Source: Pararhodobacter oceanensis (GTDB lineage: Bacteria; Pseudomonadota; Alphaproteobacteria; Rhodobacterales; Rhodobacteraceae). Taken from it: 64,000 bases of DNA. The position numbers were made by a program, and so were the translations under genes. Position 1 is the first letter of the stretch, and each line of letters begins with the position of its first letter. Location of the stretch: NCBI RefSeq assembly GCF_003076755.1, contig NZ_QDKM01000013.1:1-64000 (forward strand), given 5' to 3'. Positions 20,794-49,092 of this stretch are shown in pieces. The notes beneath the pieces are model-generated. The model searched no databases. It saw nothing but the letters and a program-made list of their open reading frames with translations, and had not been told where the DNA came from.

Positions 20794-22016
20794 TGCGGAT
20801 CTCCTGATGCTCGCACAAAATGTGCTACGGTTAATGTAAGAGCGGCCGCGCCGCTCAGAGAAGACATGTTGATGAAGGCAGAGAGACAGAAGAAAAAAGT
20901 GAAGATTTTTCCACATTTGTTGTAGTTCTTTGAAATCAAATAGAATTATATTCATTAGCGATGCCAATTCGCTGGCATCAATCGCTTACAGGATGGGAGC
21001 CTGCTGGACGACACAATGTGGTTGTGAAGGGTCTTCTGGGAAAGCGCTGTGCGCTTTCGGGCGTTCCTGCACCGGACGACGACGGATCAGGTAAGTCTTG
21101 GCACCCAGTGCACAGACAAGTTCGACTTCGGCGGGCAGATCTGGCGCCGAGCGATCCGAACGCAGCGAACATGTTTCCCGATCGGTCTTGGTTCACGCCC
21201 CGAAAAGCGCGAACGACATCGCCGAAAACAGCGTCTACTTACCCGCTCCCCCGTGCGGCCGAAAACTCCGAGCAGCCCTGTTTCCAGCGCGTAGCGGATA
21301 TCCACGACCTCGGTAGCCGGGCGAGTTGCCGTTTCCGAAGACTGGGAGTGGGGGACCGCAGGCAAACCTCCCGCTGAGCGTGCGCGCCATACCGATGATG
21401 CCGCCGTCGACCGGGCCAAGTGGACCTGAGGATGTTGTGCATGGCACACCTGCGGATGCTGACAGTCTACCGTCTGGGCAACCCGAAGGCGCGCCAAAGA
21501 AAACCGCGCCTGTCGTTCAAGCTGTTATCGCAGCATGTCGGCCCTGTGGATGCGGCCTATGACAGAGGCAGTCGGGCTAGAGAAGAATTTTTGCCACCCC
21601 CGGTGCCGGTAGCGTTGAATGTTTGTGCGCGTTCTTCCCAACTTCTGTCGGTATTCGATACCGCCGGACGGTCACCGTTTCACTTTGCTTGAGCGCGCTT
21701 CAATCTCTGAGATCGCCTTCGTTTGTCGTCGAAGGTTCGTGACGATCATCTGGGCAAGCTCGAGCTGAGCAGGGTTCAGATCTCCGTGAGCATCTAAGAG
21801 ACGGCGAAAGATGTGGCGTCTCAACGGGTTTACTCCGTGGTGTACACGGAAGAATGTTGGCCTTTTTATTCGAAAGCGAAGCGCGCCAACACGATATGCG
21901 GACACCCCCTCTTTTTGCTGGCAAAACAGTCTTATACAGGCGATTGCCCACACAATGGCTTTGATCTAGTCTTCGCCGGCACAATCGCGGCAAGGTGCCG
22001 TTTCGGGAGGCAATAT
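20794..22016. other. Degraded region with no confident gene
   Basis: About 1.2 kb without a supportable gene. Open frames exist on both strands (for example minus 21087-21497 and plus 21420-21692), but none has a ribosome site or a family I recognise. Minus 21690-21820 gives a helical peptide with AHGDLNPAQLELAQMIVTNL that may be a fragment of a lost gene. The last 60 bp contain the promoter and GGGAGG ribosome site of the ferric-type binding protein. Confidence 0.5.
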
Positions 22017-23012
22017 ATGAATAAGTTCGTTCGTTCACTCGCAGTTGCTGCGTCGCTGGCGCTGCTTGGTGGAACCGCTGTGCAGGCACTGACGGTTTAT
22101 TCCAGCGTCGATGAGGAAAACTCGGCCAGCATTCTGCGGGCGTTCACCGAGGCCACCGGCGTTCAAGTGGATATGGTGTTCCTGTCGTCGGGTCCGGCCC
22201 TGTCGCGGATTGAGGCCGAGCAGAACAACCCGCAAGCCGATGTCTGGTTCGGCGCACCCAGCGAGAACCACATTCTTGCCCATGAGCGCGGCCTAACGCA
22301 GGGGTATATCTCGGCCAATGCCGACGGGTTGCAGGATCAGTTCAGGGATGCCGACGGGTTCTGGCATGCAATTTACACCAACCCGCTGGCGTTTGGCGTT
22401 CGCACCGACATTCTGGCAGAGCGCGGCGCGCCTGCGCCCACGTCATGGGCTGACCTGACCAATTCCGCCTATAGCGGGTTGATCCAAATGCCATCGCCGC
22501 AGTCTTCGGGCACGGCGTATGCAGTGGTTTTGACCCTGCGCGAGATCATGGGCGAGGATGCTGCCTTTGAGTTCATGAGGGAATTGAACCCCAACATTCA
22601 GACCTATACGCAAAGCGGCACCGCACCTTCTGGCGCGCTCAGCGTCGGAGAGACTCCGATTGCGATCCAGTTCTCGCCGGGGTTCCTGAAGTTGAAAGAC
22701 GAAGGTTTTCCGGTTGACGTGGTCTTCCCGACGGAAGGTGTTGGCTATGAAGTCGCGGCGATGTCGATCCTGAACGGCGCGCAAAACCTCGAAGACGCCG
22801 GAACGCTGGTGGACTGGATGACCTCGGCCGAGGGCCAGCAGGCGCTGGTTGATGCCAAGACATACTTCCTGCCGGTGCGAGGCGATGTGAATGCTGGTGA
22901 AGGCGTGCCGTCGCTCGATGAGATCGAGCTGATCGCGTATGATCCCGCCTATGCGTCCGAGAACCGCCAAAGACTGGTGGATCGCTGGGCTGACGACGTT
23001 CTGGGCCAGTAG
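22017..23012 (+). CDS. Ferric iron-type ABC transporter periplasmic binding protein (FbpA/AfuA-like)
   Basis: The 331-residue protein has a Sec signal (about 1-24, ending AVQA) and a mature start LTVYSSVDEENSASILRAFT, characteristic of the FbpA/AfuA group of class-II binding proteins. Downstream ADVWFGAPSENHILAHERG and EGVGYEVAAMSILNGAQN match the AfuA-type branch. The Tyr-Tyr iron ligand pair of classical FbpA is not evident, so the ligand may be Fe(III) or, as in some AfuA and PhnS relatives, a phosphorylated organic compound. The start at 22017 follows GGGAGGCAATAT. It is first in a binding protein, permease, ATPase operon. Confidence 0.88.
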   Translation: MNKFVRSLAVAASLALLGGTAVQALTVYSSVDEENSASILRAFTEATGVQVDMVFLSSGPALSRIEAEQNNPQADVWFGAPSENHILAHERGLTQGYISANADGLQDQFRDADGFWHAIYTNPLAFGVRTDILAERGAPAPTSWADLTNSAYSGLIQMPSPQSSGTAYAVVLTLREIMGEDAAFEFMRELNPNIQTYTQSGTAPSGALSVGETPIAIQFSPGFLKLKDEGFPVDVVFPTEGVGYEVAAMSILNGAQNLEDAGTLVDWMTSAEGQQALVDAKTYFLPVRGDVNAGEGVPSLDEIELIAYDPAYASENRQRLVDRWADDVLGQ

Positions 23013-23020
23013 TCCGACCC

Positions 23021-24700
23021 ATGGTGAAGGTGAACAAAGCAGCGCGCCAGCTAAAGGTGCTGGCGCGCGATCCGGTATTGGTTGCGCTGATCGTGGTGAT
23101 TTTCTCTGCGGTGGCGATCTTTGTCGTTTATCCGTTGGTCAAGGTTCTGATCGCCAGCCTCCAAGTCCGCGGGGTCTGGACACTCGAAACCTTCGGCCAG
23201 CTTGGTGAACGCCGCCTCTACCGTAGCGCGATCGTCAACAGCCTGAGCGTTAGCACTCTGGTCGGGCTGCTGGGCGTTGTGATCGGCTATATCGCCGCCT
23301 TTGTGCTGACCCGGCTGGATGTGCCGGGACGGCGTGTGCTGCATTATCTGACCATGCTGCCGATCATCTCACCCCCCTTTGTTTCGGCAGTCTCGATCCT
23401 GTTTCTGTTCGGCTTGAATGGCGTGGTGACGAAACAGATATTGGGCCTACAGGACTTCAGTATCTATGGCTTCCATGGTGTCGTCGCCAGTCAGGTCTTT
23501 ACCTTTGCGCCAATCGCATATCTCGCGCTTCGCGGCGTGCTCGCATCCATTAATCCGGTTCTGGAAGACGCGGCACTGAATGTCGGCGCCACGGGGTGGC
23601 AGACCTTCTGGAAAGTTACATTTCCGCTGTCACTGCCCGGTATCGCCAGCGCCTTCCTTATCGTCTTTATCGAATCCTTGTCGGACTTCGGCAATCCGCT
23701 GGTGCTTGCCGGAGCCGCATTCCCCATGCTGGCACCGCAGGCCTATCTGGAAATCACCGGCTCGTTCAACCTGTCACGGGGCGCGATGCTTGCAGTGGTG
23801 CTGTTGATCCCCTCGCTCACCGCTTTCGCGATCCAGCGCTATTATCTTGGCAAACGGCAATATGTCACCGTTACCGGCAAGCCATCGGCTTCAGCCTCGC
23901 GGATTGTCAGCCCGCCGGTCAAATGGGCGCTCTATTCTATCGTCGTGCTCTTCGCGGCGATCGTCACGCTGTTCTACGGGGTGATCGTGATCGGTGCCTT
24001 TACCCGCGTTTGGGGCTTTGATTACACGCCGACGCTGGCGCATTTTGCATATGTCTTTGACGTCGGTTTCAACGCGGTGACCGATACGCTGATCATCGCG
24101 CTTATCACGACACCGCTGAGCGGCCTATTGGGCATGATCGTGGCCTTCCTGATCGTGCGGCAGAAGTTTCCCGGCCACGGAGCGCTCGAATTCGGCTCGA
24201 TCCTTAGTTATGCGGTGCCAGGGACAGTGGTTGGCATCGGTTATATCCTTGCCTTCAACAGCCCGCCTTTCGTCATGACCGGAACGCTGGCGATTCTGGT
24301 CCTGTGTTTTCTGTTTCGCTATGTGCCGGTCGGCATCCAGTCCGGCGTGGCGGTCTTGCGCCAGATTGATCCGTCGATCGAAGAGGCCGCGCGGAATCTG
24401 GGCGCGGGCACGTTGACCACGTTTCGTAAGGTGACGCTGCCGCTGATTGCGCCTGCGTTCTTTACTGGCCTCGTCTACGCCTTCGTGCGGGCGATGACCG
24501 CGATCAGCGCGGCGATTTTTCTGGTATCGGCGAATTGGAACCTGATGACGGTGCAGATCCTCAATCAGGTTGGCTCGGGACGGCTCGGGGTGGCCGCTGC
24601 CTACTCACTTGTGGTGATTGGCATCGTTCTTGTCGCCATCGTCATTATTCAGGCGGGAGTCACACGGATGACCCGCCATTCGGCTTCGGTAAAGGTGTGA
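23021..24700 (+). CDS. ABC transporter permease, two fused domains (FbpB/AfuB-like)
   Basis: The 559-residue membrane protein contains two copies of the binding-protein-dependent permease domain, as in FbpB/ThiP. Each has an EAA loop: EDAALNVGATGWQTFWKVTF in the N-terminal half (about 183-202) and EEAARNLGAGTLTTFRKVTL in the C-terminal half (about 455-474). About twelve hydrophobic segments are visible. One polypeptide thus supplies both halves of the channel. It starts 8 bp after the binding-protein gene and ends 1 bp before the ATPase start, so the three are co-expressed. Substrate as for the binding protein: ferric iron or a related ligand. Confidence 0.92.
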   Translation: MVKVNKAARQLKVLARDPVLVALIVVIFSAVAIFVVYPLVKVLIASLQVRGVWTLETFGQLGERRLYRSAIVNSLSVSTLVGLLGVVIGYIAAFVLTRLDVPGRRVLHYLTMLPIISPPFVSAVSILFLFGLNGVVTKQILGLQDFSIYGFHGVVASQVFTFAPIAYLALRGVLASINPVLEDAALNVGATGWQTFWKVTFPLSLPGIASAFLIVFIESLSDFGNPLVLAGAAFPMLAPQAYLEITGSFNLSRGAMLAVVLLIPSLTAFAIQRYYLGKRQYVTVTGKPSASASRIVSPPVKWALYSIVVLFAAIVTLFYGVIVIGAFTRVWGFDYTPTLAHFAYVFDVGFNAVTDTLIIALITTPLSGLLGMIVAFLIVRQKFPGHGALEFGSILSYAVPGTVVGIGYILAFNSPPFVMTGTLAILVLCFLFRYVPVGIQSGVAVLRQIDPSIEEAARNLGAGTLTTFRKVTLPLIAPAFFTGLVYAFVRAMTAISAAIFLVSANWNLMTVQILNQVGSGRLGVAAAYSLVVIGIVLVAIVIIQAGVTRMTRHSASVKV

Positions 24701-24701
24701 C

Positions 24702-25769
24702 ATGACAGAACCGGTTCGTATCCAGGGCCTCTGTAAAGCATTTGATAATCTCGACGATCCAGCCAAACCGGTGTTGGCGGTCAATCAGGTGAATCTTGAT
24801 ATCAACGAAGGCGAGTTGGTCACTTTGCTTGGCCCGTCGGGTTGCGGCAAGACCACGCTGCTGCGCATGGTCGCTGGTTTCGAAGAGCCGACAGAGGGCG
24901 ATATCTTCTTCGGCGACCGGCGGATGAACAACGTGCCGCCAAATCGACGCGATGCGACGATGGTGTTCCAGTCTTATGCGATTTTCCCGCATCTCAGCAT
25001 TTTTGAGAACGTTGCATTCGGCCTGCGCCTAAAATCACAAAGCCGAAAGAAGATCGAAAAGCATGTGACCGAAGTGCTGGCGATGACCGGATTGTCTGGA
25101 ATGGCCAATCGCTCGCCGACCCAGCTTTCGGGGGGGCAGCAGCAGCGTGTGGCTCTGGCGAGGGCCATCGTGATGGAGCCGAGAGTTCTGCTGTTCGACG
25201 AGCCGCTGTCAAACCTTGATGCCAAATTGCGCGACCAGATGCGGATTGAAATCCGTGAATTGCAGCAGCGTCTGGGCATCACCAGCCTGTATGTGACCCA
25301 CGATCAAGTCGAAGCGATGAGCATTTCAGATCGGATCGTTGTCATGCGGGGCGGGGTGGTTGAGCAAGTCGGCACGCCTCGCGAAATCTATAGCCAGCCG
25401 GCCAATCGTTTTGTTGCCGAGTTCATTGGCCGCGCGAACTTCATCACTGCAAAGGTGGGCGAGGCGAATACCGTTGATCTTGCGGGCGCGCGTATCGCAC
25501 TTGATGCTCCGATCGCGGCTAGCCCGGGCGATAGCGTCACTCTGCTGGTGCGGCCCGAGGTTGTCACGCTCTCACCTACGGAAGGCATCATTAACGGCAC
25601 CGTGCGGCGGGTGATGTTTTTGGGCAATCTCACCGAGTATCTGATCGAGGTTCCGGGGACCGACCCTTGGCTGGTGGAATTGAGCGGACCGGAAGCCCCG
25701 ACATTTACCGCTGGTGACACCGTGCGCCTGTCCTTGCCGCCCTCGTCGATCCACGTCTTGGCAGAATAG
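24702..25769 (+). CDS. ABC transporter ATPase (FbpC/AfuC-like)
   Basis: The 355-residue ATPase has Walker A GPSGCGKTT (44-52), a Q-loop in FQSYAIFPH, signature LSGGQQQR, Walker B VLLFDEPLSNLDA and the switch His in THDQ. A C-terminal TOBE-type domain follows (from about 240), common in the Fbp/potassium-spermidine/maltose ATPases and possibly used for regulation. It energises the two-domain permease encoded upstream. The stop at 25769 is only about 35 bp before the second IS6 remnant, so the insertion has removed anything that once followed. Confidence 0.94.
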   Translation: MTEPVRIQGLCKAFDNLDDPAKPVLAVNQVNLDINEGELVTLLGPSGCGKTTLLRMVAGFEEPTEGDIFFGDRRMNNVPPNRRDATMVFQSYAIFPHLSIFENVAFGLRLKSQSRKKIEKHVTEVLAMTGLSGMANRSPTQLSGGQQQRVALARAIVMEPRVLLFDEPLSNLDAKLRDQMRIEIRELQQRLGITSLYVTHDQVEAMSISDRIVVMRGGVVEQVGTPREIYSQPANRFVAEFIGRANFITAKVGEANTVDLAGARIALDAPIAASPGDSVTLLVRPEVVTLSPTEGIINGTVRRVMFLGNLTEYLIEVPGTDPWLVELSGPEAPTFTAGDTVRLSLPPSSIHVLAE

Positions 25770-38937: not shown

Positions 38938-40161
38938 TCAGCCGCTGCCCATGGTCTCGGGGTCGATCAGGTCGCGCCATGTATCGATCAGCCAGAGCAG
39001 ATATCCCGCCGCCCAGAACAGGCTGGCCAGCAGGTAATCCGGTCCCGGCGGCCATGGCATCAAGCCCATCTCCGGCAAAGTGCGCAGCAACACGCCCGCC
39101 GCCACGCTCAGACAGGCCAATCGCGTCAACGGGCCTTGCCCCAGCTTCTGGCCGGTGTGGAATTTGCCGACAATCGCAAAGACCGAGATCACCCCCATGC
39201 CGATCCCGCCCATCACCGCCAGATGCAGCGCCGGCACCTCGGACCATGGCGCACCCAGCCGCGACGCGCCAAGCGCGATCAGCCCCAGACCGGCGAAACC
39301 GGCGCTGGCCATCAGGCTTAGCACTTCGGTGCGAAAGCTGGCGCGGCCCAGAAACCCCTCGCCGACGCGGTCCATAAACGCCGCCCCCGCCGCGATCCAG
39401 AGCCAGCCGGTGACCGCCGTGCTCAGCCCCGACAGCTCCCCTGCCAGCGCCAAGGCGACCAGCCCCGGCGCAAGGTTCATCCGCCCCGGATGCGGGCGAA
39501 AGGGCACGGTTTCCTCGCTGGGGTCCAGCACATGATTGGCCACCGGCACCGCGATTCGACTGATCGCAAGCCCCAGAATGCCCATGAAAATCAATCCGGC
39601 AAGCACCAAAGCGCGCTGCGCAAGCTCGACCTGCCCGCTGGCCATGCCAAATCGCACTACTGCCGCCCCCGCGATCAGCGCCGCAATCCAGCCGATGAAG
39701 GGCAACAGCCGGTCGGTGCGCCTTTGCACGGTGAGGCGCAGCAGATAGCCCAGCAGCAGCAGCATCCAGCCCAGATCGGCCAGCAGCGACAGCCAGAGCA
39801 TCGGCTCGATGCCCAAGAGCCCGGCCAGCCGCGCCACCCCCCAAAGCGCCGCCAATCGCCAGAGCGCCCGCCCCTGCAAACGCTTGGTGTCGGTCCATTC
39901 CGGCGCAGCGGTGGTCATGAAGCCGATCAACACCGCGCCCCATGCGCCGAGGATCATCTCGGACCCGTGCCAGAGGCCCTGCGGCAGTGCCACCGCGAAG
40001 GGCAAGCGCAGCGACCAAAGGGCCACCCAGAGAAACGGCCAGAGCGCGATATGCAGTGCCGCCAAGGGAAAGAACAGCCGGAATCCCTCGTCGCTGAGCA
40101 CCGGCAGAATCGGCGCGGCGGGCGGATCTGTTAGGCGCTTGGCTAGGCTGCGATCACTCAT
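38938..40161 (-). CDS. nnrS: NnrS family membrane protein
   Basis: This 407-residue, about 12-helix protein matches NnrS: GFRLFFPLAALHIALWPFLW near the N-terminus, LWHGSEMILGAWGAVLIGFM near residue 62 and HLAVMGGIGMGVISVFAIVG near residue 310. NnrS is a haem- and copper-containing inner membrane protein that protects against nitric oxide-linked stress in denitrifiers. Here it is the last gene of an operon with a nitrate/sulfonate-type ABC transporter, overlapping the ATPase gene by 4 bp. No nitrate- or nitrite-reductase gene is present. Its link to this transporter is not explained by known function. Confidence 0.92.
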   Translation of the reverse strand: MSDRSLAKRLTDPPAAPILPVLSDEGFRLFFPLAALHIALWPFLWVALWSLRLPFAVALPQGLWHGSEMILGAWGAVLIGFMTTAAPEWTDTKRLQGRALWRLAALWGVARLAGLLGIEPMLWLSLLADLGWMLLLLGYLLRLTVQRRTDRLLPFIGWIAALIAGAAVVRFGMASGQVELAQRALVLAGLIFMGILGLAISRIAVPVANHVLDPSEETVPFRPHPGRMNLAPGLVALALAGELSGLSTAVTGWLWIAAGAAFMDRVGEGFLGRASFRTEVLSLMASAGFAGLGLIALGASRLGAPWSEVPALHLAVMGGIGMGVISVFAIVGKFHTGQKLGQGPLTRLACLSVAAGVLLRTLPEMGLMPWPPGPDYLLASLFWAAGYLLWLIDTWRDLIDPETMGSG

Positions 40162-40910
40162 GGGCGGCGCCTTTCGTCAACGTCGTGGATATGGCGAAAC
40201 AGCGGGTCTTCAGTGAGGAACCGCTGGCGCAGGGCAAAGGTCGTCGCCTCATCGCGCGCGCCGGGGTCGCCGGGCAGGATGCGCAGACCGGCGATGCCGC
40301 GCCCGCGCAGGTCCAGAACCGCGATCCGATGGGCAATGCGCAGCGCCTCGACCAGATCGTGGGTAATGAACAGCGCAGCAAACTGCGCCTCTTCGGCGGC
40401 GGCAATCACCAGATCCTGCATCCGGCGTTTGAGCGCCACATCCAGCGCGGTGAAAGGCTCGTCGAAAAAGATGAAATCGGGCCGCACCGCCAAAGCGCGG
40501 GCAATCGCCACCCGCTGCCGCATCCCGCCCGACAGCTCAACCGGATATTTCGCCAGATCCTGAGGCTCCAATTCGGCCAGCCGCGCCGCCTCGGCGACCC
40601 GCGCGGGGCGCAGGCGGCGGGGCAATTTGGCGCGGCGCAGGGCAAAGCCGATATTCTGCGCCGCCGTCGCCCAAGGCAGCAGGCGCGGCTCTTGAAAGAT
40701 CATCGCATGGCGCGCGTAGCCCGGCGTCACCCGCCCCTCGCGCGGCTCGACCAGACCGGCGGCGATATGGGCCAGCGTGGATTTGCCCGAGCCCGAGGGA
40801 CCGACCAGCGCCACCACCTCGCCCGGCGCGATCTGCAGGTCGATACTGTTGAGAACGCTTTGCCCGAAATAGGCGTGGCCGATGCGGTGCAATTCCAGCG
40901 CGGCGCTCAT
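40158..40910 (-). CDS. ABC transporter ATPase, nitrate/sulfonate/taurine type
   Basis: The 250-residue ATPase contains Walker A GPSGSGKST (about 37-45), signature LSGGMRQRV, Walker B FIFFDEPFTALD and the switch His in THDLVEALRIA. These features are typical of the SsuB/TauB/NrtD group. It pairs with the permease gene upstream (overlap ATGA) and the binding protein before that. NnrS follows in the same operon. The cargo is unknown. Confidence 0.93.
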   Translation of the reverse strand: MSAALELHRIGHAYFGQSVLNSIDLQIAPGEVVALVGPSGSGKSTLAHIAAGLVEPREGRVTPGYARHAMIFQEPRLLPWATAAQNIGFALRRAKLPRRLRPARVAEAARLAELEPQDLAKYPVELSGGMRQRVAIARALAVRPDFIFFDEPFTALDVALKRRMQDLVIAAAEEAQFAALFITHDLVEALRIAHRIAVLDLRGRGIAGLRILPGDPGARDEATTFALRQRFLTEDPLFRHIHDVDERRRP

Positions 40911-41719
40911 TTCTTAACCCCCCAGGGCTGCGCGGCACGGCGCCAGCCTTCGATTTCCGCCTGCATCGGGCGGATCAGCCCGTATTCGACCACCACCAGC
41001 GCGATCACCGCCAGCACCACCCAGGCCAGCGCTTGCGGCACGTCCAGCATCGCCCGCGCCCGCGCCAATGCGCCACCGACGCCGCCTGCATTGGCCAGCA
41101 TCTCGGCCATCACCGCGACCTTGAACGAGGTGCCAAGCGCCAGTGCCAGCGCCGGAAACAAGGGCGCCGCCGCCTGCCGCAGGTCAATGAACCAAAAGCG
41201 GCCCAAGGCGCCATAGCGAAAGACCTCGGCCATCGTGCCCAACCCGCGATCGCGGCTGGCGATGCCCTCGGCGGCGGCGACAAAGACCACCGGCGTCGCC
41301 GAAATCAGGATCGTCGCCGCCACCGTCGCGCCCGAGGTGCCGAACCACATCATCGTCAACACGATCCAGGCAATCGGCGGCACCCCCAGCACCACCGTCA
41401 GCAAGGGTCGCGCCAGACGCATCACCGCTGGCGCGTAACCGGCGATGATGCCGATAACCGCGCCGCTGAATGCGGCCAGCGTAAACCCGGCCAAGGCGCG
41501 TTGGGCGGTGAGCAGCAGCAAGCCGCGGCTCTCGCTCGAGATCGCCAGCGACCATGTCGCACCAAGCGTGGCCAGAGGGTCGGGCAGGATGAAATCGCCC
41601 CATGTCTCATGCCCCGCCTGCCAGCAGGCGAAGAGCAGCGCCAACGCCGCCAGTCCGGCCCAGCCCGACCACAGGAAATCCAGCAGGCGCGCCGCCCGAT
41701 CTGCGAGGATACGTGTCAT
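40907..41719 (-). CDS. ABC transporter permease, nitrate/sulfonate/taurine type
   Basis: The 270-residue permease has about six hydrophobic segments and the binding-protein-dependent loop in the YGALGRFWFIDLRQAAAPLF region (near residue 185). It also has the segment VVLGVPPIAWIVLTMMWFGT near residue 105, typical of SsuC/TauC-like proteins. It starts 45 bp after the binding-protein gene. It forms the channel for whatever the binding protein delivers. Confidence 0.92.
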   Translation of the reverse strand: MTRILADRAARLLDFLWSGWAGLAALALLFACWQAGHETWGDFILPDPLATLGATWSLAISSESRGLLLLTAQRALAGFTLAAFSGAVIGIIAGYAPAVMRLARPLLTVVLGVPPIAWIVLTMMWFGTSGATVAATILISATPVVFVAAAEGIASRDRGLGTMAEVFRYGALGRFWFIDLRQAAAPLFPALALALGTSFKVAVMAEMLANAGGVGGALARARAMLDVPQALAWVVLAVIALVVVEYGLIRPMQAEIEGWRRAAQPWGVKK

Positions 41720-41764
41720 AGACTCCCGTTCATCGGTTGCGGCTCATCGGTTTCGCCTCATGGA

Positions 41765-42757
41765 TTACAGCGCATAAAAACCGTCATCCGGCAGCTGCCC
41801 GCCCAGAATCGCCGGATCTTGCGTGGCCATCAGGGTGAACATCGCCTCCAGCGTCGGACGCGCCACGCTGGCCGGTGTCGCGGTGAGATTGGCAAAGGGG
41901 ATCGAGGCCGCCAATAGGGGCGCGGGCAGCCCCAAGGCCTCGGCAGCCTGCGCGGCGGCGGTTTGCGGATCGGCGAGCACGGCGGCGGTCGCCTGTTCCA
42001 ATGCCGCATGCAGGGGCGCGATCAACCCGCCATGCGCCTGCGAGAACCCTTGGGTCACCGCCAGACCGGCTTGCGGCACCACCGGCCCCAGACCGGTCAC
42101 GCCGCCCCATTCCGCTTGCAAATCCACCGCACGGGTCAGGCTCACCCCCGCCTCGCGTCCGCGCAGGATCGCGGCGCTGGCGACCGGCTCGCTTAGCACC
42201 GCCGCGTCGATCCGTCCGGCGAGCAGCATCTGCGCCGCCTCCATCGGTGATCCGGTCGCGGCCAGCGTCACCTCGCCCGCGATCCCGTGCTCGGCGAGCA
42301 GGGCGCGGGTGATGAAATCCGGCGTGTCATTGGGGAATGGCACCGCCAGAACCTTGCCCGCCAGCGCTGCGATATCGGGCAATTCTCCGTCGCGCGCCAG
42401 AATATACAACAGGCCGTTGGTCATCACATTGACCAGCCGCAGCCCCATGCCGCGCGTGTAAAGATTGGCTGCCGCCTGGGTCGGCACCACCGAGACGTCA
42501 ATCGCCCCCGAGGTCAGCCCGGCGCGCAGCTCATCCGGCGTACGCCAGACCGTCAGGCTGACCTCGCCGGCGAGTTCTGCCAGCGCCTGACTGGCCACCG
42601 CATGGGCCAGCGTGATCGTCGGACCGGCGGGCGGGCCATAGACCGCCAAACGCGGTGCGGTCTGCGCTGACAGGATCGCGGGCGCGGCAAGGGTCATGGC
42701 CCCGGCGCCAAATCCGATGAGAACCGTGCGGCGATTGTGGCGTGTATTGGTGAACAT
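41765..42757 (-). CDS. ABC transporter periplasmic binding protein, NMT1/THI5/SsuA-like
   Basis: The 330-residue protein has a Tat-like leader (NRRTVLIGFGAGAMT, cleaved near LSAQ) and the NMT1/SsuA fold with LRAGLTSGAIDVSVVPTQAA (about 98-117) and MEAAQMLLAGRIDAAVLSEP (about 178-197). The family binds nitrate, sulfonates, thiamine precursors and other small anions. It is the first gene of the transporter/NnrS operon. The pairing with NnrS suggests a nitrogen-oxide or metal/cofactor-related cargo, but the ligand cannot be deduced. Confidence 0.9.
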   Translation of the reverse strand: MFTNTRHNRRTVLIGFGAGAMTLAAPAILSAQTAPRLAVYGPPAGPTITLAHAVASQALAELAGEVSLTVWRTPDELRAGLTSGAIDVSVVPTQAAANLYTRGMGLRLVNVMTNGLLYILARDGELPDIAALAGKVLAVPFPNDTPDFITRALLAEHGIAGEVTLAATGSPMEAAQMLLAGRIDAAVLSEPVASAAILRGREAGVSLTRAVDLQAEWGGVTGLGPVVPQAGLAVTQGFSQAHGGLIAPLHAALEQATAAVLADPQTAAAQAAEALGLPAPLLAASIPFANLTATPASVARPTLEAMFTLMATQDPAILGGQLPDDGFYAL

Positions 42758-42950
42758 CTGCTATCCCTTTCAAAGCGCGAAGGCTGTGAAACTCGGCTTG
42801 GCTGGGATGCGTGCGGCTTAGCCTGAGTAAATCTGTCAAGTTAATGAAAAACACCTAACGCGCGGCGAAAAACCTGTCAATTCTTCGATGCCCCGCACGG
42901 CTTCGCCGGACGATTTGCCGCATCGCGGCGCGCGCCAGCGGCCTGCCGGC

Positions 42951-44030
42951 TCAGCCAATCGCGATCAGATGGTTGTCCCATGCGACACCCGCAAGCCGGG
43001 TCACCGTGAGCGGCTCATCAGCAAGCTGCGCGACATGGCCCAATCCGGTGGTCACCAGAAAACCCTGCGCCGTCGCTGCCAACCCGCAGACATCCTCCAT
43101 CGCGGTGGCGCTGAGGAAGTCACCAGTTGCGGCGTCAAAACGGTGCAGCTGCCCGCCCCGCGGCGAGGTGATCGCCAAGAACTGCCCGTCGCGCGAAAAT
43201 CCGACGCTGCCGGCATAGTTGCGCATCCGCCGCTGCTCGCCCTCTGGTGCGCCGAGCAAACGCGGCGCATCGCCGAGCCGATGGGTCAGCAGCAGCGGCG
43301 GGAACCGGCCCGCACTCCCCTCCCATTGCATCGCCGCAGCGACCAGCCCGTCGGCGCGCAGACTCAGATGCCGGATGGAGTTCTGACGCAAGCCGATATC
43401 AAGTTCGACACGCTCGACCAGCGCCCCATCCGCCGAGATATAGGCCAGATTGCCCCGCATGCTCGCCGAATTCAGCGGCATGCGGCCACTGTCGGGATGG
43501 GTGGCGATACCGCCATTGGCAATGACCAGCAGATCGCTATCGGGCAGGCGCGCGATATCATGCGGTCCGATCCCGCCCGAAGGAATATCGCCAATCCGCG
43601 CATAGCCATTGGCCGCGTCCCAGATGCCGATACGCCCCTCCAGCGTCTCGAGGTCATTCTCGGTGGTGAAAAGCAGCGCGCCATCGCGCGAAAACACCCC
43701 ATGCCCGTAAAAATGCCGCCCGCTCGGCGCATCCAGTTGCGCCAGCACCCGACCATCGCGGCAGTCAATCACCAGCGCGAAAAAGCCCGGACGCCGCGCG
43801 AAAGCCACCGCCTCGGCGCGGTGCGGATGGGCGGCGGCGGCATGGCCACGCGCGGGCAGCGGCAGGGAAAACCGGACCTCCCCGCCTGCGGATAACCCAT
43901 AGAGCGCATAGGCGCCGCTGGCCTGCCGCGCCGCTGAAAGAAACGCCGGATCGCCGACCTCGGCCCAGCCTGCGACCGGCAGGGATAGGGCGGCGGTGGC
44001 TCCGGCGAGGAAGGCGCGACGCGTGGTCAA
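42951..44030 (-). CDS. DUF1513 periplasmic protein of the imelysin iron operon
   Basis: The 359-residue protein has a twin-arginine leader (TTRRAFLAGATAALSLPVAG) and repeated beta-propeller-like segments, for example GRHFYGHGVFSRDGALLFTT (near residue 120) and GGIGPHDIARLPDSDLLVIA (near residue 160). DUF1513 proteins regularly accompany imelysin and DUF1111 genes in bacterial iron-regulated operons, but their role is not known. The start is taken as TTG at 44030, because no ATG or GTG fits and homology starts there; the longer frame to 44252 lies inside the preceding gene. It closes the six-gene iron operon. Confidence 0.86.
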   Translation of the reverse strand: MTTRRAFLAGATAALSLPVAGWAEVGDPAFLSAARQASGAYALYGLSAGGEVRFSLPLPARGHAAAAHPHRAEAVAFARRPGFFALVIDCRDGRVLAQLDAPSGRHFYGHGVFSRDGALLFTTENDLETLEGRIGIWDAANGYARIGDIPSGGIGPHDIARLPDSDLLVIANGGIATHPDSGRMPLNSASMRGNLAYISADGALVERVELDIGLRQNSIRHLSLRADGLVAAAMQWEGSAGRFPPLLLTHRLGDAPRLLGAPEGEQRRMRNYAGSVGFSRDGQFLAITSPRGGQLHRFDAATGDFLSATAMEDVCGLAATAQGFLVTTGLGHVAQLADEPLTVTRLAGVAWDNHLIAIG

Positions 44031-44034
44031 AACC

Positions 44035-45054
44035 TCAATCCCCGTCCATCGCGTTGAACCCCGCCGCAACCCCGAGCGCCGGCGCCAGAACCGCTTGCAC
44101 CGCGGCATCCGCACCCCGCACGCGGCGTTGCAAATCCTCGATGCGCAGACGGCCCTGCGGCTCGCTGACACCGGCAAACACCGGATCATCCAGCGCCTGC
44201 GCGCGTTGGATGGCGGCGTTGAACTGGGGCATGATCCTCGCGCCAATACCATCCCGTGCGGGCGTGATCAGCGCCGCCATCTCGGCCAGGCTTTGCAAGG
44301 CAAGCTGCACATGGCGCAGGGACCGGCCCGAGCGCCGCGCCTCGGCGCGCAACGGGCGCGGCGCGTCAAATGTGCCCAAGGGACGCCCCAGCCGCAGATC
44401 GGCGGTATATTCCAGCCCGTGACCCAGCGCGCCCAACAGCGCCCGCAGCGCCTCGGCATCGCTGCGAAACCGCTCGTTTTGTCCGGCGCTGCGCATCAGA
44501 TCGGCGAAGTCCCCAAGCCATGCGGCGTTGATCTGCGCGGCGGTGCGGTGGATATCCGCGGTCACCGCCTGCACCAGCGCGCAGCGATAGGCGTCGGATC
44601 CCGCCGTCATCACCTGCGCGTCATAGAGCAGGAACTCCAGCGCATAAAAGCCGCGCGCCGCGATCGAGACCGTGGCAAACCCTTCGGCGCTGTCGATCAC
44701 CGGATCTTCCTCTTCGATCAGACGCAGCAGGCTGCGCGGGGTCATGCCGCGTTGGTCGGGCCAGAAACTGAGCGAGAACAGCCGGTTCTCCTCCTCAGCC
44801 GGACCGAACGCCAGATGGCTGACGCGAATCCATGCGTCGAATGCCGTGCCATAGGCGACGCGCAGGTCTGGCGAGAGGGCGCGGCAGTCCTCCTGCGCCA
44901 GCGCGGCCAAAGCGCCGGTCTCACGCTCGAGCGCCGCATAGCCGGGCAGGATATGCTGATCGACAACCCGCGCGACGCTGAGCTGCGCTTCGGTCTGTGC
45001 GATTGCGGCCAGCGGCAGGATGCAAAGACCAAGGGCAAGAAAGAGGCGGCGCAT
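44035..45054 (-). CDS. Imelysin-like (M75) periplasmic protein lacking the canonical His
   Basis: The 339-residue protein has a Sec signal (MRRLFLALGLCILPLAAIAQ) and the imelysin fold. Where imelysins carry GxHxxE, the proposed metal site, it has GFYALE (135-140): the His is Tyr137 while the Glu remains. The other imelysin encoded in this operon has the complete motif, so the two have probably diverged in function. The ATG overlaps the last base of the TAA of the DUF1111 gene. Imelysins (IrpA, EfeO relatives) take part in periplasmic iron handling; peptidase activity is doubtful. Confidence 0.87.
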   Translation of the reverse strand: MRRLFLALGLCILPLAAIAQTEAQLSVARVVDQHILPGYAALERETGALAALAQEDCRALSPDLRVAYGTAFDAWIRVSHLAFGPAEEENRLFSLSFWPDQRGMTPRSLLRLIEEEDPVIDSAEGFATVSIAARGFYALEFLLYDAQVMTAGSDAYRCALVQAVTADIHRTAAQINAAWLGDFADLMRSAGQNERFRSDAEALRALLGALGHGLEYTADLRLGRPLGTFDAPRPLRAEARRSGRSLRHVQLALQSLAEMAALITPARDGIGARIMPQFNAAIQRAQALDDPVFAGVSEPQGRLRIEDLQRRVRGADAAVQAVLAPALGVAAGFNAMDGD

Positions 45055-46610
45055 TATAGGCTCTCCAGAAAGGCGATCAGGGCGGCGCGGTCTTCGGGCG
45101 CCATGGTGATCACCGCATCGCGCTGAGACTCTGCCTCGCCGCCATGCCAGAGCACCGCTTCGAGCAGCGAGCGCGCGCGGCCATCATGCAGGAAATAGCT
45201 GTGACCGGACACGGTTTGCGTCAGGCCGATCCCCCAGAGCGGCGGCGTGCGCCATTCGCGCCCCGTGGCGCGGCCTTCGGGGCGGTGATCGGCCAGACCC
45301 TCGCCCATATCGTGCAACAGTAGATCGGAATAGGGCCAGATCAGTTGAAAACTCTGCGCGCCGCCATCCTGCAGCCGGTGGGTGACATAATTCGCCCGGT
45401 GACAGGCGGCGCAGCCGGTCTGGTAGAACACCTCCCGACCATGCAACACCTGCGGATCGTCAACATTGCGCCGCGCCGGAACCGCCAGATTGCGGCTGTA
45501 GAAAGCCACCAGATCAAGCCCGGTCTGGTCGATCTCGAGACCGCCATGCTCGGGATCGCCGCCGTCCACCTGTTCGCGGCACAGGGTCTGCGCCGCCGTG
45601 CATTCGCCCCAACCCTCGGGGTGCAGCGGGGTCGACATCCCCATGTCACCGGCAAAAGCCGCCGCAGATTGCGCGCGCACCGTCGCCTCACCGGCTTTCA
45701 GCCCGAACCGCCCCAGCATCGGCGCACCGAATTCCGCCGACCAGACCACATTCGGACGGCCCGAGATCCCGTCGCCATCCGCATCCTCGGGGTCGGCATA
45801 GGCCAGAATATCCGCTGTCGGAATCGCTTCGAGCAGACCCAGCCCGATCATCTGCGGCGCCACCCGCGGGCTGAGCATCGCCCCTTCGGCCAAAGGCCCA
45901 TAGCCCAGATCGGCGGCCTCATAGACCGGCTGGCGCAGGCTGGCGACCTCACCGCCGGACAGGCGCAGCTCAAGGGGTTCATAGCGGACCGACAGGCGGT
46001 ATTCCGGCGCATGACCCGGCAGGCTGAAATCCTGCAATTGCGCGCCATAGACCGGATCTGGCGCGGTGTGATGGGTGCCGGCGATATAGGTTTCCAGCGC
46101 CTCGAGATCGGGCGTTTCTGCCTCGGTCACCGGAATCGACACGCGCAGGAACATCGACACCGCGCTGTCGTCGGGCCCCTCGGGCGGGTGCCCGCGCCCG
46201 TCTTTCAGATGGCAGCGCTGGCAGGAACGCGCATTGAACAGCGGCCCGAGCCCGTCAGAGGCCAGCGTCGAGGCCGGAGCCGAGACCCAGACCCGCCGGA
46301 ACAACCCGTTGCCGACCCTGAATTGCAGCTCTTCCTCAAAGCTCAGATTGGCCGAAGGCAGCGAAAACGCATCCGCCATCGCCCGCGCCCGCACCGTCGC
46401 TGCGCCGCCGCCGTTTTCCTCAAACGCGCGCGGCGCGGAAAAATCAGTTGGCGGCGCGGTCACCGCAGCAATCCGCGCCGCCTCTTCTGCTGTGCGTGGG
46501 ACGATCGACAGGTGCAAATCCTGCAGATGCGACCAGTCTTCCGGTGGCATAATCTGTGCTGACAATGCTGTCGGAATCAGCAGCGCCGCCAGAGTATACC
46601 ACCCGCGCAT
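45054..46610 (-). CDS. Di-haem c-type protein, DUF1111 (thiol oxidoreductase-like)
   Basis: The 518-residue protein has a signal peptide (about 1-19) and two haem c sites: CQRCH (about 130-134) and CAACH (about 400-404). Around them are DUF1111 features such as DGLGPLFNARSC and GREVFYQTGCAACH. The family is related to MauG/cytochrome c peroxidases and typically neighbours imelysin genes. It may oxidise Fe(II) or a thiol in the periplasm during iron uptake; this is a proposal. The ATG at 46610 starts 1 bp after the bacterioferritin stop. The longer frame to 46640 lies within bfr. Confidence 0.9.
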   Translation of the reverse strand: MRGWYTLAALLIPTALSAQIMPPEDWSHLQDLHLSIVPRTAEEAARIAAVTAPPTDFSAPRAFEENGGGAATVRARAMADAFSLPSANLSFEEELQFRVGNGLFRRVWVSAPASTLASDGLGPLFNARSCQRCHLKDGRGHPPEGPDDSAVSMFLRVSIPVTEAETPDLEALETYIAGTHHTAPDPVYGAQLQDFSLPGHAPEYRLSVRYEPLELRLSGGEVASLRQPVYEAADLGYGPLAEGAMLSPRVAPQMIGLGLLEAIPTADILAYADPEDADGDGISGRPNVVWSAEFGAPMLGRFGLKAGEATVRAQSAAAFAGDMGMSTPLHPEGWGECTAAQTLCREQVDGGDPEHGGLEIDQTGLDLVAFYSRNLAVPARRNVDDPQVLHGREVFYQTGCAACHRANYVTHRLQDGGAQSFQLIWPYSDLLLHDMGEGLADHRPEGRATGREWRTPPLWGIGLTQTVSGHSYFLHDGRARSLLEAVLWHGGEAESQRDAVITMAPEDRAALIAFLESL

Positions 46611-46611
46611 A

Positions 46612-47097
46612 TTACTCGGCCTCGTCCATCGTGGTTGCATTCAGCAAGGCGTATTTCTCGGCGCCGACACGCTCGAACAGGTCGATCTGGGTTTCCAGAA
46701 AGTCGATATGCCCCTCTTCATCGGCCATCAGCGCCTCGAACAGCGCCATCGACACGTAATCGCCCGCCGCATGGCAGCATTCACGCGCTTCTTTATACAG
46801 GGCGCGGGCCTCAACTTCGGCGGCCAGATCGCAATCCAGCGTTTCACGCGGAGTCTGGCCGATGCGCAACGGGTTCAGCTTTTGCAGGTTGGGATGCCCG
46901 CCAAGAAAAAGGATGCGCGCGATCAGCTTATCGGCATGCTCCATTTCCTCGATCGATTCCTCGCGGCTTTTCTTGGCCATCTTGCCAAGGCCCCAATCGT
47001 CTTGCAGACGGTAATGCAGCCAATACTGGCTGACCGCAGTCAACTCATGGCGCAGGGCCTTGTTGAGATACTCGATAACCTTTTCGTCGCCCTTCAT
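46612..47097 (-). CDS. bfr: Bacterioferritin
   Basis: The 161-residue four-helix protein has every ferroxidase ligand at the standard position: Glu18, Glu51, His54, Glu94, Glu127 and His130. It also has Met52, the axial haem ligand between subunits. It should form the 24-subunit cytoplasmic iron-storage shell. It overlaps bfd by 4 bp (ATGA) and is 1 bp before the DUF1111 gene, so iron storage is embedded in an operon for periplasmic iron proteins. Length is normal. Confidence 0.96.
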
Positions 47098-47339
47098 CTG
47101 GCTTCTCCTTTTTGGCGTGAGGGGTTCAGCCCCTGTAGTATAGCAGGAACCGTCAAGTTTACGTTAGCTTGCATCGTCGACAGAAACAGCGGCATACATC
47201 CGCCGCAATCCGCCGACTTCCCCAGGGCACGATAGATTTTTCCCGGCGTCACCAATGTGTCCGCATCCGCCGCCCGCATCCAGTCGATAGCGGCCGAGAT
47301 ATCGCGGTCCGAAATATGCGCACAATGGCAAACAATCAT
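47094..47339 (-). CDS. bfd: Bacterioferritin-associated ferredoxin
   Basis: The 81-residue [2Fe-2S] protein begins [10 protein letters not shown] and has the Bfd cluster ligands Cys4, Cys6, Cys45 and Cys48 (CHC ... CGGC). Bfd binds bacterioferritin and gives electrons to its haem to release stored iron. It is longer than the usual about 65 residues at both the middle and the C-terminal end. The ATG at 47339 is chosen because the CHC motif must be near the N-terminus; frame upstream to 47486 overlaps the imelysin gene. It is joined to bfr by an ATGA overlap. Confidence 0.93.
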
Positions 47340-47376
47340 CCGGTGTCTCCAAAAAAGCAGAATTTCGTTGGGAAAT

Positions 47377-47402
47377 GGCCGGAGCGTGAGCGCGCTCCGG
47401 CC
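47377..47402. terminator. Hairpin between irpA-like gene and bfd
   Basis: GGCCGGAGCG (47377-47386) pairs perfectly with CGCTCCGGCC (47393-47402) around a 6-nt loop, directly after the imelysin stop at 47410. On the minus strand it is followed by ATTTCC, a weak U-run. It may be a partial terminator that keeps the imelysin more highly expressed than the five genes behind it. Confidence 0.5.
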
Positions 47403-47409
47403 GAAGGGC

Positions 47410-48672
47410 TTACTGGAACACCGCCGATGGATCATCCAGACTGTCAGAGCCTTCAAAGGCGATCCCGTCCAGCCCCAGAGCCACAACCACCCGTTCGATG
47501 GATTGGGTCTGGGCGATCAACCCGTTCACTCCCGCCATGATCAGCGCCTCGCCGCCCGCGTTGCCGCGCTCGAGCATCTGGTCATAGGCGAAACCGGCCT
47601 CGGCGGCGGTTTTGATCTGGCCAAGCGCATGCATGGTTTCATAGAGCCGCAGGCGCATTTCCGCATCCAGCGCCGGTTCCGCTGCGCTCACCAGATCCGA
47701 GAGCGAGGCACCACTGACGCTTGTGCCATCAATCCGCGTATAGCTGCCCAGATAGGCCGACTGCACACCGAGCCCGTCGTAGTAATGGCTGTTATGAGTG
47801 TTGTCCGAGAAGCAATCATGCTCTTCTTCGGGATCGTTCAGCATCAGGCCAAGGCGCATGCGCTCACCGGCCTGCTCGCCATATGACAGCGACCCCATGC
47901 CGGTGAGGATCGCCGAGAGACCGGCGGTTTCATCGGCCATCAGGGCGACGCGCGCGGCGCCATCCTCGGCCCATTGCGCCGCCATCCAGTCCAGATCCGA
48001 CACCAAAAGCGAGGTCGCCGCGCTCAGATACGCGCCGCGCCGGTCGCAGTTGTCATTGGTGCAGTCTTCGCCCTGCGCATAATCGGTCCATGGCCGCTCG
48101 CCCGCACCCGCATCATGGCCGTTGTTATCCTGGCCCCAGAGCAGAAACTCGATCGCGTGATAACCGGTCGCGACATTCGCCTCGATACCATCGGCCTCAT
48201 GCAGCTGGTCTTGCAGCAATTCAGGAGTGATCTGGCTGGCGTCAACCTCTTGCCCCGACAGGGTAAATTGCGGGTTCGCGATCACATTCAGCGCGGCAAG
48301 CTGGTTCTCATCGCTCGGCCCGCCGTAGGATGTGCCGACATAGTCGATCAGCCCCTCATCCAGCGGCCACGCATTCACCCGGCCTTCCCAATCATCAACG
48401 ATGGCATTGCCAAAGCGGTATACCTCGGACTGCTGATAGGGCACGCGGGCGGCGATCCAAGCGGCACGGGCGGCCTGCAGCGCCTCGGCGGAGGGGTTGG
48501 CAATCAATTCATCCACGGCAGCCTGCAGACGCCGCGCCGCGATCAGACTGTCTTCATATTTCGCTTCGGCAATATCGGCATAGGTATCCAGCACATCCTG
48601 TGCGCTTTGGGCATCAGCCACGCTGGAAAAAGCAGCGACAAGAGCCGTGCTGGCGAGAAGAGATCTGAACAT
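47410..48672 (-). CDS. irpA: Imelysin-family iron-regulated protein (IrpA-like)
   Basis: The 420-residue protein has a Sec signal (cleavage near ADAQ) and the complete imelysin motif GYHAIE (about 170-175) in TGYHAIEFLLWG, plus GLGVQSAYLGSY and QSEVYRFGNAIVDDWEGRVN, typical of IrpA. IrpA-like proteins are induced under iron limitation and lie in the periplasm or outer envelope. The start is the ATG at 48672, spaced properly from AAGGA; the ATG at 48681 sits right after it. It is the first gene of the six-gene operon, whose other members are bfd, bfr, the DUF1111 protein, a second imelysin and the DUF1513 protein. Confidence 0.91.
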   Translation of the reverse strand: MFRSLLASTALVAAFSSVADAQSAQDVLDTYADIAEAKYEDSLIAARRLQAAVDELIANPSAEALQAARAAWIAARVPYQQSEVYRFGNAIVDDWEGRVNAWPLDEGLIDYVGTSYGGPSDENQLAALNVIANPQFTLSGQEVDASQITPELLQDQLHEADGIEANVATGYHAIEFLLWGQDNNGHDAGAGERPWTDYAQGEDCTNDNCDRRGAYLSAATSLLVSDLDWMAAQWAEDGAARVALMADETAGLSAILTGMGSLSYGEQAGERMRLGLMLNDPEEEHDCFSDNTHNSHYYDGLGVQSAYLGSYTRIDGTSVSGASLSDLVSAAEPALDAEMRLRLYETMHALGQIKTAAEAGFAYDQMLERGNAGGEALIMAGVNGLIAQTQSIERVVVALGLDGIAFEGSDSLDDPSAVFQ

Positions 48673-49092
48673 CGCGGTCATCCTTAGGTTTTCTCAAATG
48701 TTGCCCTTGGCTGGCGACGTCCGGTGCGGCCGACGTGCGTGGCTTGGCGCGGTAAAGCGATTCGCTATGGGCGCAGTATTGAGGAACGCGCCGCGTCAAT
48801 TCAATACCTGATTGTTTCACTTGGATATAGAAATCACCTTAAACCAAACGCCCCAATGCGCGCATGACCCCGCAGCGCCTGCGACTCCGTGCGCCCAACT
48901 CGGTGCTAGTCTTTTGAAAATCCGGTCAAAACTCCCGCGCGCAGGGCAAATCCACGCCACCAACGGCATGCCGAGGCCCTGCGCCCGAATCACCTCGGGT
49001 CACTCATATCTGACCGATCAAATCCACCAGCAGGCAGGTCTCTTGCCGCGCGAAATGCGTGATCTTGGCGGCAAGGCCCCGCTAACCCGCCC
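48673..49092. other. Promoter region of the iron operon
   Basis: About 420 bp between the imelysin start and the stop of the amidohydrolase gene, which is on the same strand. It must contain the iron-operon promoter; a TTGACG hexamer on the minus strand near 48797-48802 is a possible -35 box. I could not identify a convincing Fur, RirA or Irr box by eye. A plus-strand frame (48812-49096) has no family. Confidence 0.4.

Follow-up and report, generated by a model that had tools for sequence, protein, structure and literature searches.

Gene content and organization of the locus

The DNA analyzed was a 64,000-nucleotide stretch of Pararhodobacter oceanensis (contig NZ_QDKM01000013.1, positions 1 to 64,000), referred to below as the window, and the subject of this report is a six-gene iron operon on its minus strand (48681-42951; Table 1). 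The genes encode, in order, an imelysin (IrpA), a bacterioferritin-associated ferredoxin (Bfd), a bacterioferritin (Bfr), a di-haem oxidoreductase of the DUF1111 type (DHOR), a second imelysin, and a DUF1513 protein. This order had been claimed in a first-pass annotation made from the sequence alone, and it was borne out: all six families (Peptidase_M75, PF09375, for the imelysins) scored above their Pfam cut-offs, and the GYHAIE motif named for imelysin 1 was found. Four of the genes are for exported proteins and two for intracellular iron release and storage.

The GYHAIE motif of imelysin 1 lies at residue 173 and matches the GxHxxE of the ICMP class; an alternative ATG is present at 48672, and a Sec signal was judged by eye. 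The corresponding motif of imelysin 2 is GFYALE, which lacks the histidine. Bfd, starting from an ATG at 47339, shows the CxC...CxxC cysteine pattern with four cysteines, and the genome contains just one other PF04324 match, within a 505-amino-acid frame. Bfr is the only match in the genome to its own sequence at an E-value of 1e-20, and one further gene of the Ferritin family is located on contig C4. Read by position, the di-iron residues E18, E51, H54, E94, E127, and H130 and the haem ligand M52 are present in Bfr, using the numbering that we assumed for the ferroxidase residues and M52. In DHOR, both CxxCH sites and two more cysteines were invariant in 30 aligned sequences. The N-terminus of the DUF1513 protein is twin-arginine-like (TTRRAFLAG), as judged by eye, and a sequence search of the PDB gave no match for this protein.

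The junctions had been described as 4 bp, 1 bp, or near zero, which holds for four of them (bfd-bfr, -4; bfr-DHOR, +1; DHOR-imelysin 2, -1; imelysin 2-DUF1513, +4 bp) and fails for irpA-bfd, where the gap is 70 bp (47340-47409). Conservation of the order was assessed in 295 genomes of the family, among which DUF1513 was found in 145; surroundings were taken from 140 loci besides the window, and genomes G029, G279, G183, and G216 were omitted from this locus survey on account of weak or broken DUF1513 matches. The bfd and bfr genes were located directly before DHOR in 44 of the 140 loci (45 of 141 with the window), and because the order is identical in these 44 it is beyond chance. The six iron genes probably form one operon.

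Comparison with described systems

Going by the annotations in PMC4618611, the same six genes occur in the same order in Rhodobacter sphaeroides, where RSP_1548 (irpA), RSP_1547 (bfd), and RSP_1546 (bfr) are followed by RSP_1545, a thiol oxidoreductase with two haem sites, and by RSP_1544 and RSP_1543, both hypothetical. It follows from place and annotation that the last two correspond to the second imelysin and the DUF1513 protein, respectively. As described in that source, differential RNA-seq strongly suggests that RSP_1545-1543 are cotranscribed with hemP-irpA-bfd-bfr, the operon is repressed by IscR, and Iron-Rhodo boxes are found at hemP and inside the operon (PMC4618611). The log2 increases reported there for an iscR mutant are 2.53 for irpA, 2.30 for bfd, 1.50 for bfr, 0.92 for RSP_1544, and 0.72 for RSP_1543, whereas that of RSP_1545 is 0.59 and below the filter of the study (PMC4618611). 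Iron limitation is reported to induce irpA, bfd, and bfr (PMC3413700), and the induction of irpA and bfd to be stronger with oxygen (PMC4176601). Since gene order, coupling, and iron response are all in print for R. sphaeroides, the operon is of a known kind, and that of P. oceanensis is a new member of an already described Rhodobacterales arrangement. The first-pass annotation had expected coupled expression as a single iron operon and had proposed a search for bfr/bfd inside imelysin-DUF1111 operons; the probable cotranscription in R. sphaeroides (PMC4618611) and the conserved linkage in 44 of 140 loci both support this expectation. One difference concerns an internal box, which in R. sphaeroides is placed before RSP_1545 (PMC4618611), whereas none was seen here, the best score in the bfd-bfr region being -7.3 bits.

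Three further systems share some of these components. To our knowledge, the Bfd-BfrB pair of Pseudomonas aeruginosa does not form part of an imelysin operon. As in the operon here, this pair brings Bfd together with a haem bacterioferritin, and it serves to mobilize stored iron (PMC7760384). The P. aeruginosa genes PA4370-PA4373 likewise encode a pair of imelysins, of which one has the histidine of GxHxxE and the other lacks it, together with a DUF1111-type protein, but are described as regulated by iron through Fur rather than IscR, and bacterioferritin goes unmentioned in the main text of the source (PMC3143127). The EfeUOB/M ferrous uptake systems are also described as combining periplasmic iron-binding M75 proteins with a haem-protein partner (PMC9174327, PMC3143127); EfeM, an M75-only relative, is reported to bind copper, iron, and zinc (PMC9174327), and EfeB is named as a DUF1111 relative (PMC3143127). 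Unlike EfeUOB/M, the operon genes here have no EfeU permease or cupredoxin domain according to Pfam, and the EfeU permease family was likewise missing from the Pfam matches of all ten minus-strand genes at 38938-48681. The kinship of EfeB, presumably a DyP-type protein, with DUF1111 is one that we take to be disputed.

Candidate iron boxes

Two dyads were enriched upstream of hemP or irpA: CTGA-N9-TCAG occurred in 53 of 197 loci (0.7 expected after shuffling) and CCGA-N9-TCGG in 39 of 197 (1.0 expected after shuffling), with 49 and 36 occurrences, respectively, among 184 distinct stretches. Compared with its description rather than its published letters, these candidate sites agree with the Iron-Rhodo box, a palindrome of 19 bp that resembles the RirA box (PMC4618611). 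Scores in bits were obtained with a matrix built on the CTGA sites. The window contains one candidate box before irpA and another, its best match, before an ABC-NnrS operon downstream (Table 1); the score of the latter was reached in none of 100 simulated 64-kb windows of the same dinucleotide make-up, and the third-best match in the window scored only 3.8 bits. The hemP gene of the genome has a 22.6-bit box match at its start. The putative IscR is the product of an Rrf2 gene with a PCPAV motif, a motif described for IscR (PMC4618611); after it in the genome come genes for an aminotransferase class-V protein, taken to be IscS, and then for SufB, names that were both assigned by eye. A census of exact-pattern boxes in the genome (23 places) was set aside as unspecific, as one match of 19.5 bits lay inside an alpha-amylase-family gene.

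Among relatives, the leading promoter had a box of at least 13 bits in 27 of 43 bfd-bfr loci and in 53 of 86 lacking the pair, against 0 of 133 in the control, a count that is partly circular because many of these promoters had gone into the training of the matrix. Boxes of this strength were few within 350 bp before bfd (7 of the 44 bfd-bfr loci) or before bfr (5 of 44), so bfd-bfr would depend on the leading promoter in most loci. A box preceded DHOR in 16 of 133 relatives.

Distribution and history of bfd-bfr

The most frequent alternative to the six-gene order, seen in 70 of the 140 loci, was irpA-DHOR-imelysin-DUF1513, with or without hemP and lacking bfd-bfr; the irpA-DHOR distance was less than 450 bp in 67 of 81 measurable loci without bfd. 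The hemP gene came first in 25 of the 44 bfd-bfr loci, and one additional locus had bfd alone. A second sample of 80 loci, chosen by similarity to the DUF1513 of the window, contained bfd-bfr in 44, with 16 of the 80 repeating the 140 (identical DUF1513). A model built from the gene at L043:5504-6526 (Porin_4, 27.7 bits; cut-off, 27) detected a porin-like gene in the irpA-bfd interval of 8 of the 44 bfd-bfr loci, where it would give the operon an outer-membrane part; the gene at this position in locus L058 matched no Pfam family. On plasmid pDOK1-4-2 of Tateyamaria omphalii (L114:4351-6143), the imelysin-DHOR interval, which is the usual bfd-bfr site, holds a Dps-type gene on the opposite strand and a DUF1289 gene.

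At the level of whole genomes, a close Bfr was missing from 75 of the 145 DUF1513 genomes and present only elsewhere in 24, the tally leaving aside partial rows of G048 and G220 as well as matches at about 36-46% identity; a distant Bfr occurred in eight of the 75 (G007, G144, G183, G189, G213, G226, G246, and G253). Bfr was located within 7 kb of DUF1513 in 46 of the 70 genomes with both (46 of 145 overall), in agreement with the locus count, and in G255 it was downstream of DUF1513. Bfr was present without DUF1513 in 26 genomes, and over the 295 genomes the two co-occurred with an odds ratio of 4.5, uncorrected for kinship (70/145 vs 26/150).

A tree of the operon proteins was built using FastTree from the 134 of 141 rows with both DHOR and DUF1513, with 45 of 131 inner branches left open. 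On this tree the bfd-bfr state required at least 36 changes, 28 of them forced by starred branches, compared with a mean of 37.6 for shuffled labels; some rows scored as lacking bfd-bfr end at contig ends (e.g., L142, L176, and L209). Bfr distances correlated with those of IrpA, imelysin 2, and the DUF1513 protein (r 0.36-0.45) and less with DHOR (r 0.15), and Bfd distances correlated weakly with all four periplasmic proteins (r 0.05-0.13). The simplest reading is the repeated loss of bfd-bfr from an old six-gene operon, because the site is constant and Bfr distances show a moderate correlation with the IrpA, imelysin 2, and DUF1513 distances; the alternative is repeated gain or exchange.

These data also bear on the possibility that bfd-bfr are passengers put behind the iron-regulated promoter of irpA, sharing only their iron response with the imelysin-DHOR set. 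Their scatter on the tree, which is close to that of shuffled labels, and the weak correlations of Bfd with the periplasmic proteins and of Bfr with DHOR are what such passengers would show. The site is nevertheless constant in all 44 bfd-bfr loci of the 140, running from irpA (or the porin-like gene) to DHOR, and the stronger Bfr correlations suit long co-inheritance with many losses; we consider passengers somewhat unlikely.

The adjacent ABC transporter-NnrS operon

Table 1. Coordinates and supporting matches of the genes and candidate iron boxes in the window
Feature	Position	Strand	Evidence
Imelysin 1 (IrpA, ICMP class, GYHAIE)	47410..48681	-	PF09375, 288 bits; PDB 7xrx, E=5e-115
Bfd, bacterioferritin-associated ferredoxin	47094..47339	-	PF04324 (Fer2_BFD), 30.3 bits, cut-off 26
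Bfr, bacterioferritin	46612..47097	-	Ferritin, 116 bits; TIGR00754, 180 vs cut-off 125.6; PDB 1jgc, E=7e-75
DHOR (DUF1111), di-haem oxidoreductase	45054..46610	-	PF06537, 314 bits; two CxxCH
Imelysin 2 (GxxxxE class, like IPPA/PA4372)	44035..45054	-	PF09375, 175 bits; PDB 3pf0, E=8e-11
DUF1513 protein	42951..44030	-	PF07433, 395 bits; TTG start at 44030
SsuA/NMT1-type ABC substrate-binding protein	41765..42757	-	Pfam NMT1_2 above cut-off; NCBIfam SsuA_fam below cut-off
ABC permease	40907..41719	-	Pfam
ABC ATPase	40158..40910	-	Pfam
NnrS	38938..40161	-	PF05940, 231 bits
Candidate Iron-Rhodo (IscR) box before irpA	48805..48827	-	15.1 bits
Candidate Iron-Rhodo (IscR) box before ABC-NnrS operon	42820..42842	-	19.2 bits, best in window

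The first-pass annotation had noted that no inner-membrane permease is encoded, which is true of the six genes themselves, and had looked to an unlinked ATP-binding cassette (ABC) transporter at 22017-25769, termed ferric-type. That assignment was not upheld, as the nearest NCBIfam models were 2-aminoethylphosphonate transporters, all below cut-off. Taken as 21813-25769, the transporter was rejected as an iron permease: its three parts best matched putative 2-aminoethylphosphonate models, below cut-off, and none of the 15 best iron-box matches of the window lay within it. An ABC permease operon preceded by an iron-box match begins much nearer, 193 bp past DUF1513 on the same strand, and ends with NnrS. 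In P. oceanensis it is a nearer candidate permease than the transporter at 22017-25769, although the system does not generally include it.

The distribution of this module was examined by its binding protein, with at most seven candidates scored per genome. Matches at an E-value of 0.001 were found in 27 of the 295 family genomes, and close relatives (E 1e-66 or better) in at least nine places in at least eight genomes besides the window. These nine loci, together with seven plasmid loci examined of 54 records and the window, gave 17 module loci. The ABC-NnrS gene set was complete in seven of the nine and in all seven plasmid loci, and NnrS was present in 14 of the 16 loci outside the window. 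A TonB receptor adjoined the module, lay inside it, or was at most three genes away in at least five of the 17, and three other module loci had denitrification or NnrU genes as neighbours; in Paracoccus denitrificans, nnrS is placed in the nar locus (PMC9409073). On the conjugative plasmid pORIO2 of Cereibacter azotoformans (L322:618-14316), the ABC-NnrS module is accompanied by FeoA, two TonB receptors, and genes for haem use.

A box of at least 13 bits heads the module in five of the 17 loci: the window, both copies in G035, Cereibacter, and Rhizobium sp. SSA_523. The G035 boxes precede the leading gene of the operon; in the copy that was tested this is a DUF454 gene, and the other copy looks alike by eye. 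Five such boxes in 17 promoters would not be expected by chance, since there were at most 36 sites of 13 bits in 1.48 Mb of other DNA. With the threshold lowered to 8 bits, boxes were found at the module head in seven of 17 loci and in none of the other 10. In G255, a 13.5-bit match (L301:4843-4865) lies in the interval between NnrS and a downstream TonB receptor gene. An FNR-like TTGN8CAA site was not found before the ABC operon of the window; because four of the seven plasmid modules carry one (Cereibacter, Agrobacterium, Azospirillum, and Rhizobium), control by nitric oxide or oxygen may matter more in the plasmid modules.

The module was rejected as a fixed part of the irpA operon, since its binding protein was found in none of 220 other loci (in 8 of these, the sequence stops within 1 kb of the DUF1513 gene). 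In the P. oceanensis genome it could still serve the imelysin system as its permease, in view of its place, its strand, and the strongest iron-box match in the window, but we judge this very unlikely, given its absence from the 220 loci, its position beside denitrification genes elsewhere, and the apparent rarity of close binding-protein relatives among the candidates scored (at least four of the 145 DUF1513 genomes, that of the window included). Because the adjacency is peculiar to the P. oceanensis genome, the module is at most a fellow member of the regulon and not the general permease of the operon. NnrS has a protective role against nitric oxide. We tentatively suggest that the module may be an undescribed iron-controlled importer of denitrifying alphaproteobacteria, served by a TonB receptor in several genera. 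Its substrate would be either a complexed form of iron or some other ligand that depends on TonB, NnrS would shield the imported metal pool from nitric oxide, and in P. oceanensis the module and irpA-bfd-bfr would share one IscR regulon.

Proposed function of the operon

The irpA-bfd-bfr-DHOR-imelysin-DUF1513 operon of the Rhodobacterales is interpreted here as an IscR-controlled starvation operon with two parallel arms, a reading to which we assign a probability of roughly three in four. When iron is plentiful, IscR loaded with an Fe-S cluster would occupy the box upstream of irpA, and when iron is low it would release the box and the six genes would be transcribed, as in R. sphaeroides. In the periplasmic arm, the imelysins would bind iron and DHOR would alter its redox state for uptake by an inner-membrane transporter; the DUF1513 protein is provisionally placed in this arm, handling incoming iron. 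Bfd serves the release of iron from bacterioferritin. In the cytoplasmic arm, going by the Bfd and Bfr families, Bfd would reduce the bacterioferritin core and so free stored iron, and Bfr would recapture the surplus on the return of iron. The arms would have a promoter in common and would not form a pipeline, because they separate freely in evolution and because it is iron limitation that induces the genes; the persistence of the periplasmic genes in loci and genomes without Bfr supports parallel arms.

The first-pass annotation had instead proposed a single coupled pathway, in which Fe(II) captured by the imelysins is oxidized by DHOR, imported by an unlinked permease, and stored in Bfr. That the operon is shared in 45 loci out of 141 and that Bfr co-occurs with DUF1513 would fit such a flux, but irpA, bfd, and bfr are reported to rise under iron limitation, when storage is least needed (PMC3413700, PMC4176601, PMC4618611), the partner of Bfr in the operon is a release factor, and of the 145 DUF1513 genomes 75 are without a close Bfr and 24 have it only elsewhere. 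The pathway is accordingly not supported and is regarded as improbable.

Several observations weigh against the two-arm, IscR-controlled reading. The oxygen-linked induction of irpA and bfd is reported to need OxyR as well (PMC4176601), and RSP_0443, the same regulator, is predicted as an activator of RSP_1547-1548 (PMC4344238), so IscR is not the whole story. A bfr, which one being unstated in the passage concerned, is listed among oxygen-independent iron-responsive genes (PMC4176601), whereas oxygen strengthens the response of irpA and bfd, so that bfr may to some extent be uncoupled from them; its own rise in starvation suits release poorly. The R. sphaeroides operon is led by hemP, whereas hemP of P. 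oceanensis is elsewhere, on contig C8 only. The right arm of the irpA box is degenerate (TTGG for TCAG), its score of 15.1 bits was reached somewhere in three of the 100 simulated windows, and the genome's own iscR has just a 2.4-bit match upstream. Within 42700-48950, a sigma-70-like promoter was not found and terminator-like sites were at chance level (6 vs 4.7). The redox direction given to DHOR is likewise a proposal.

The irpA operon indicates that imelysin-DHOR-DUF1513 sets are loosely tied to the release of stored iron, with roughly one in three surveyed loci combining the two in one operon. The comings and goings of bfd-bfr at one site provide natural pairs, with and without these genes, for probing the role of the periplasmic set. 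With its iron-box matches in several genera, the ABC-NnrS module is a candidate for connecting iron supply with the metabolism of nitric oxide.

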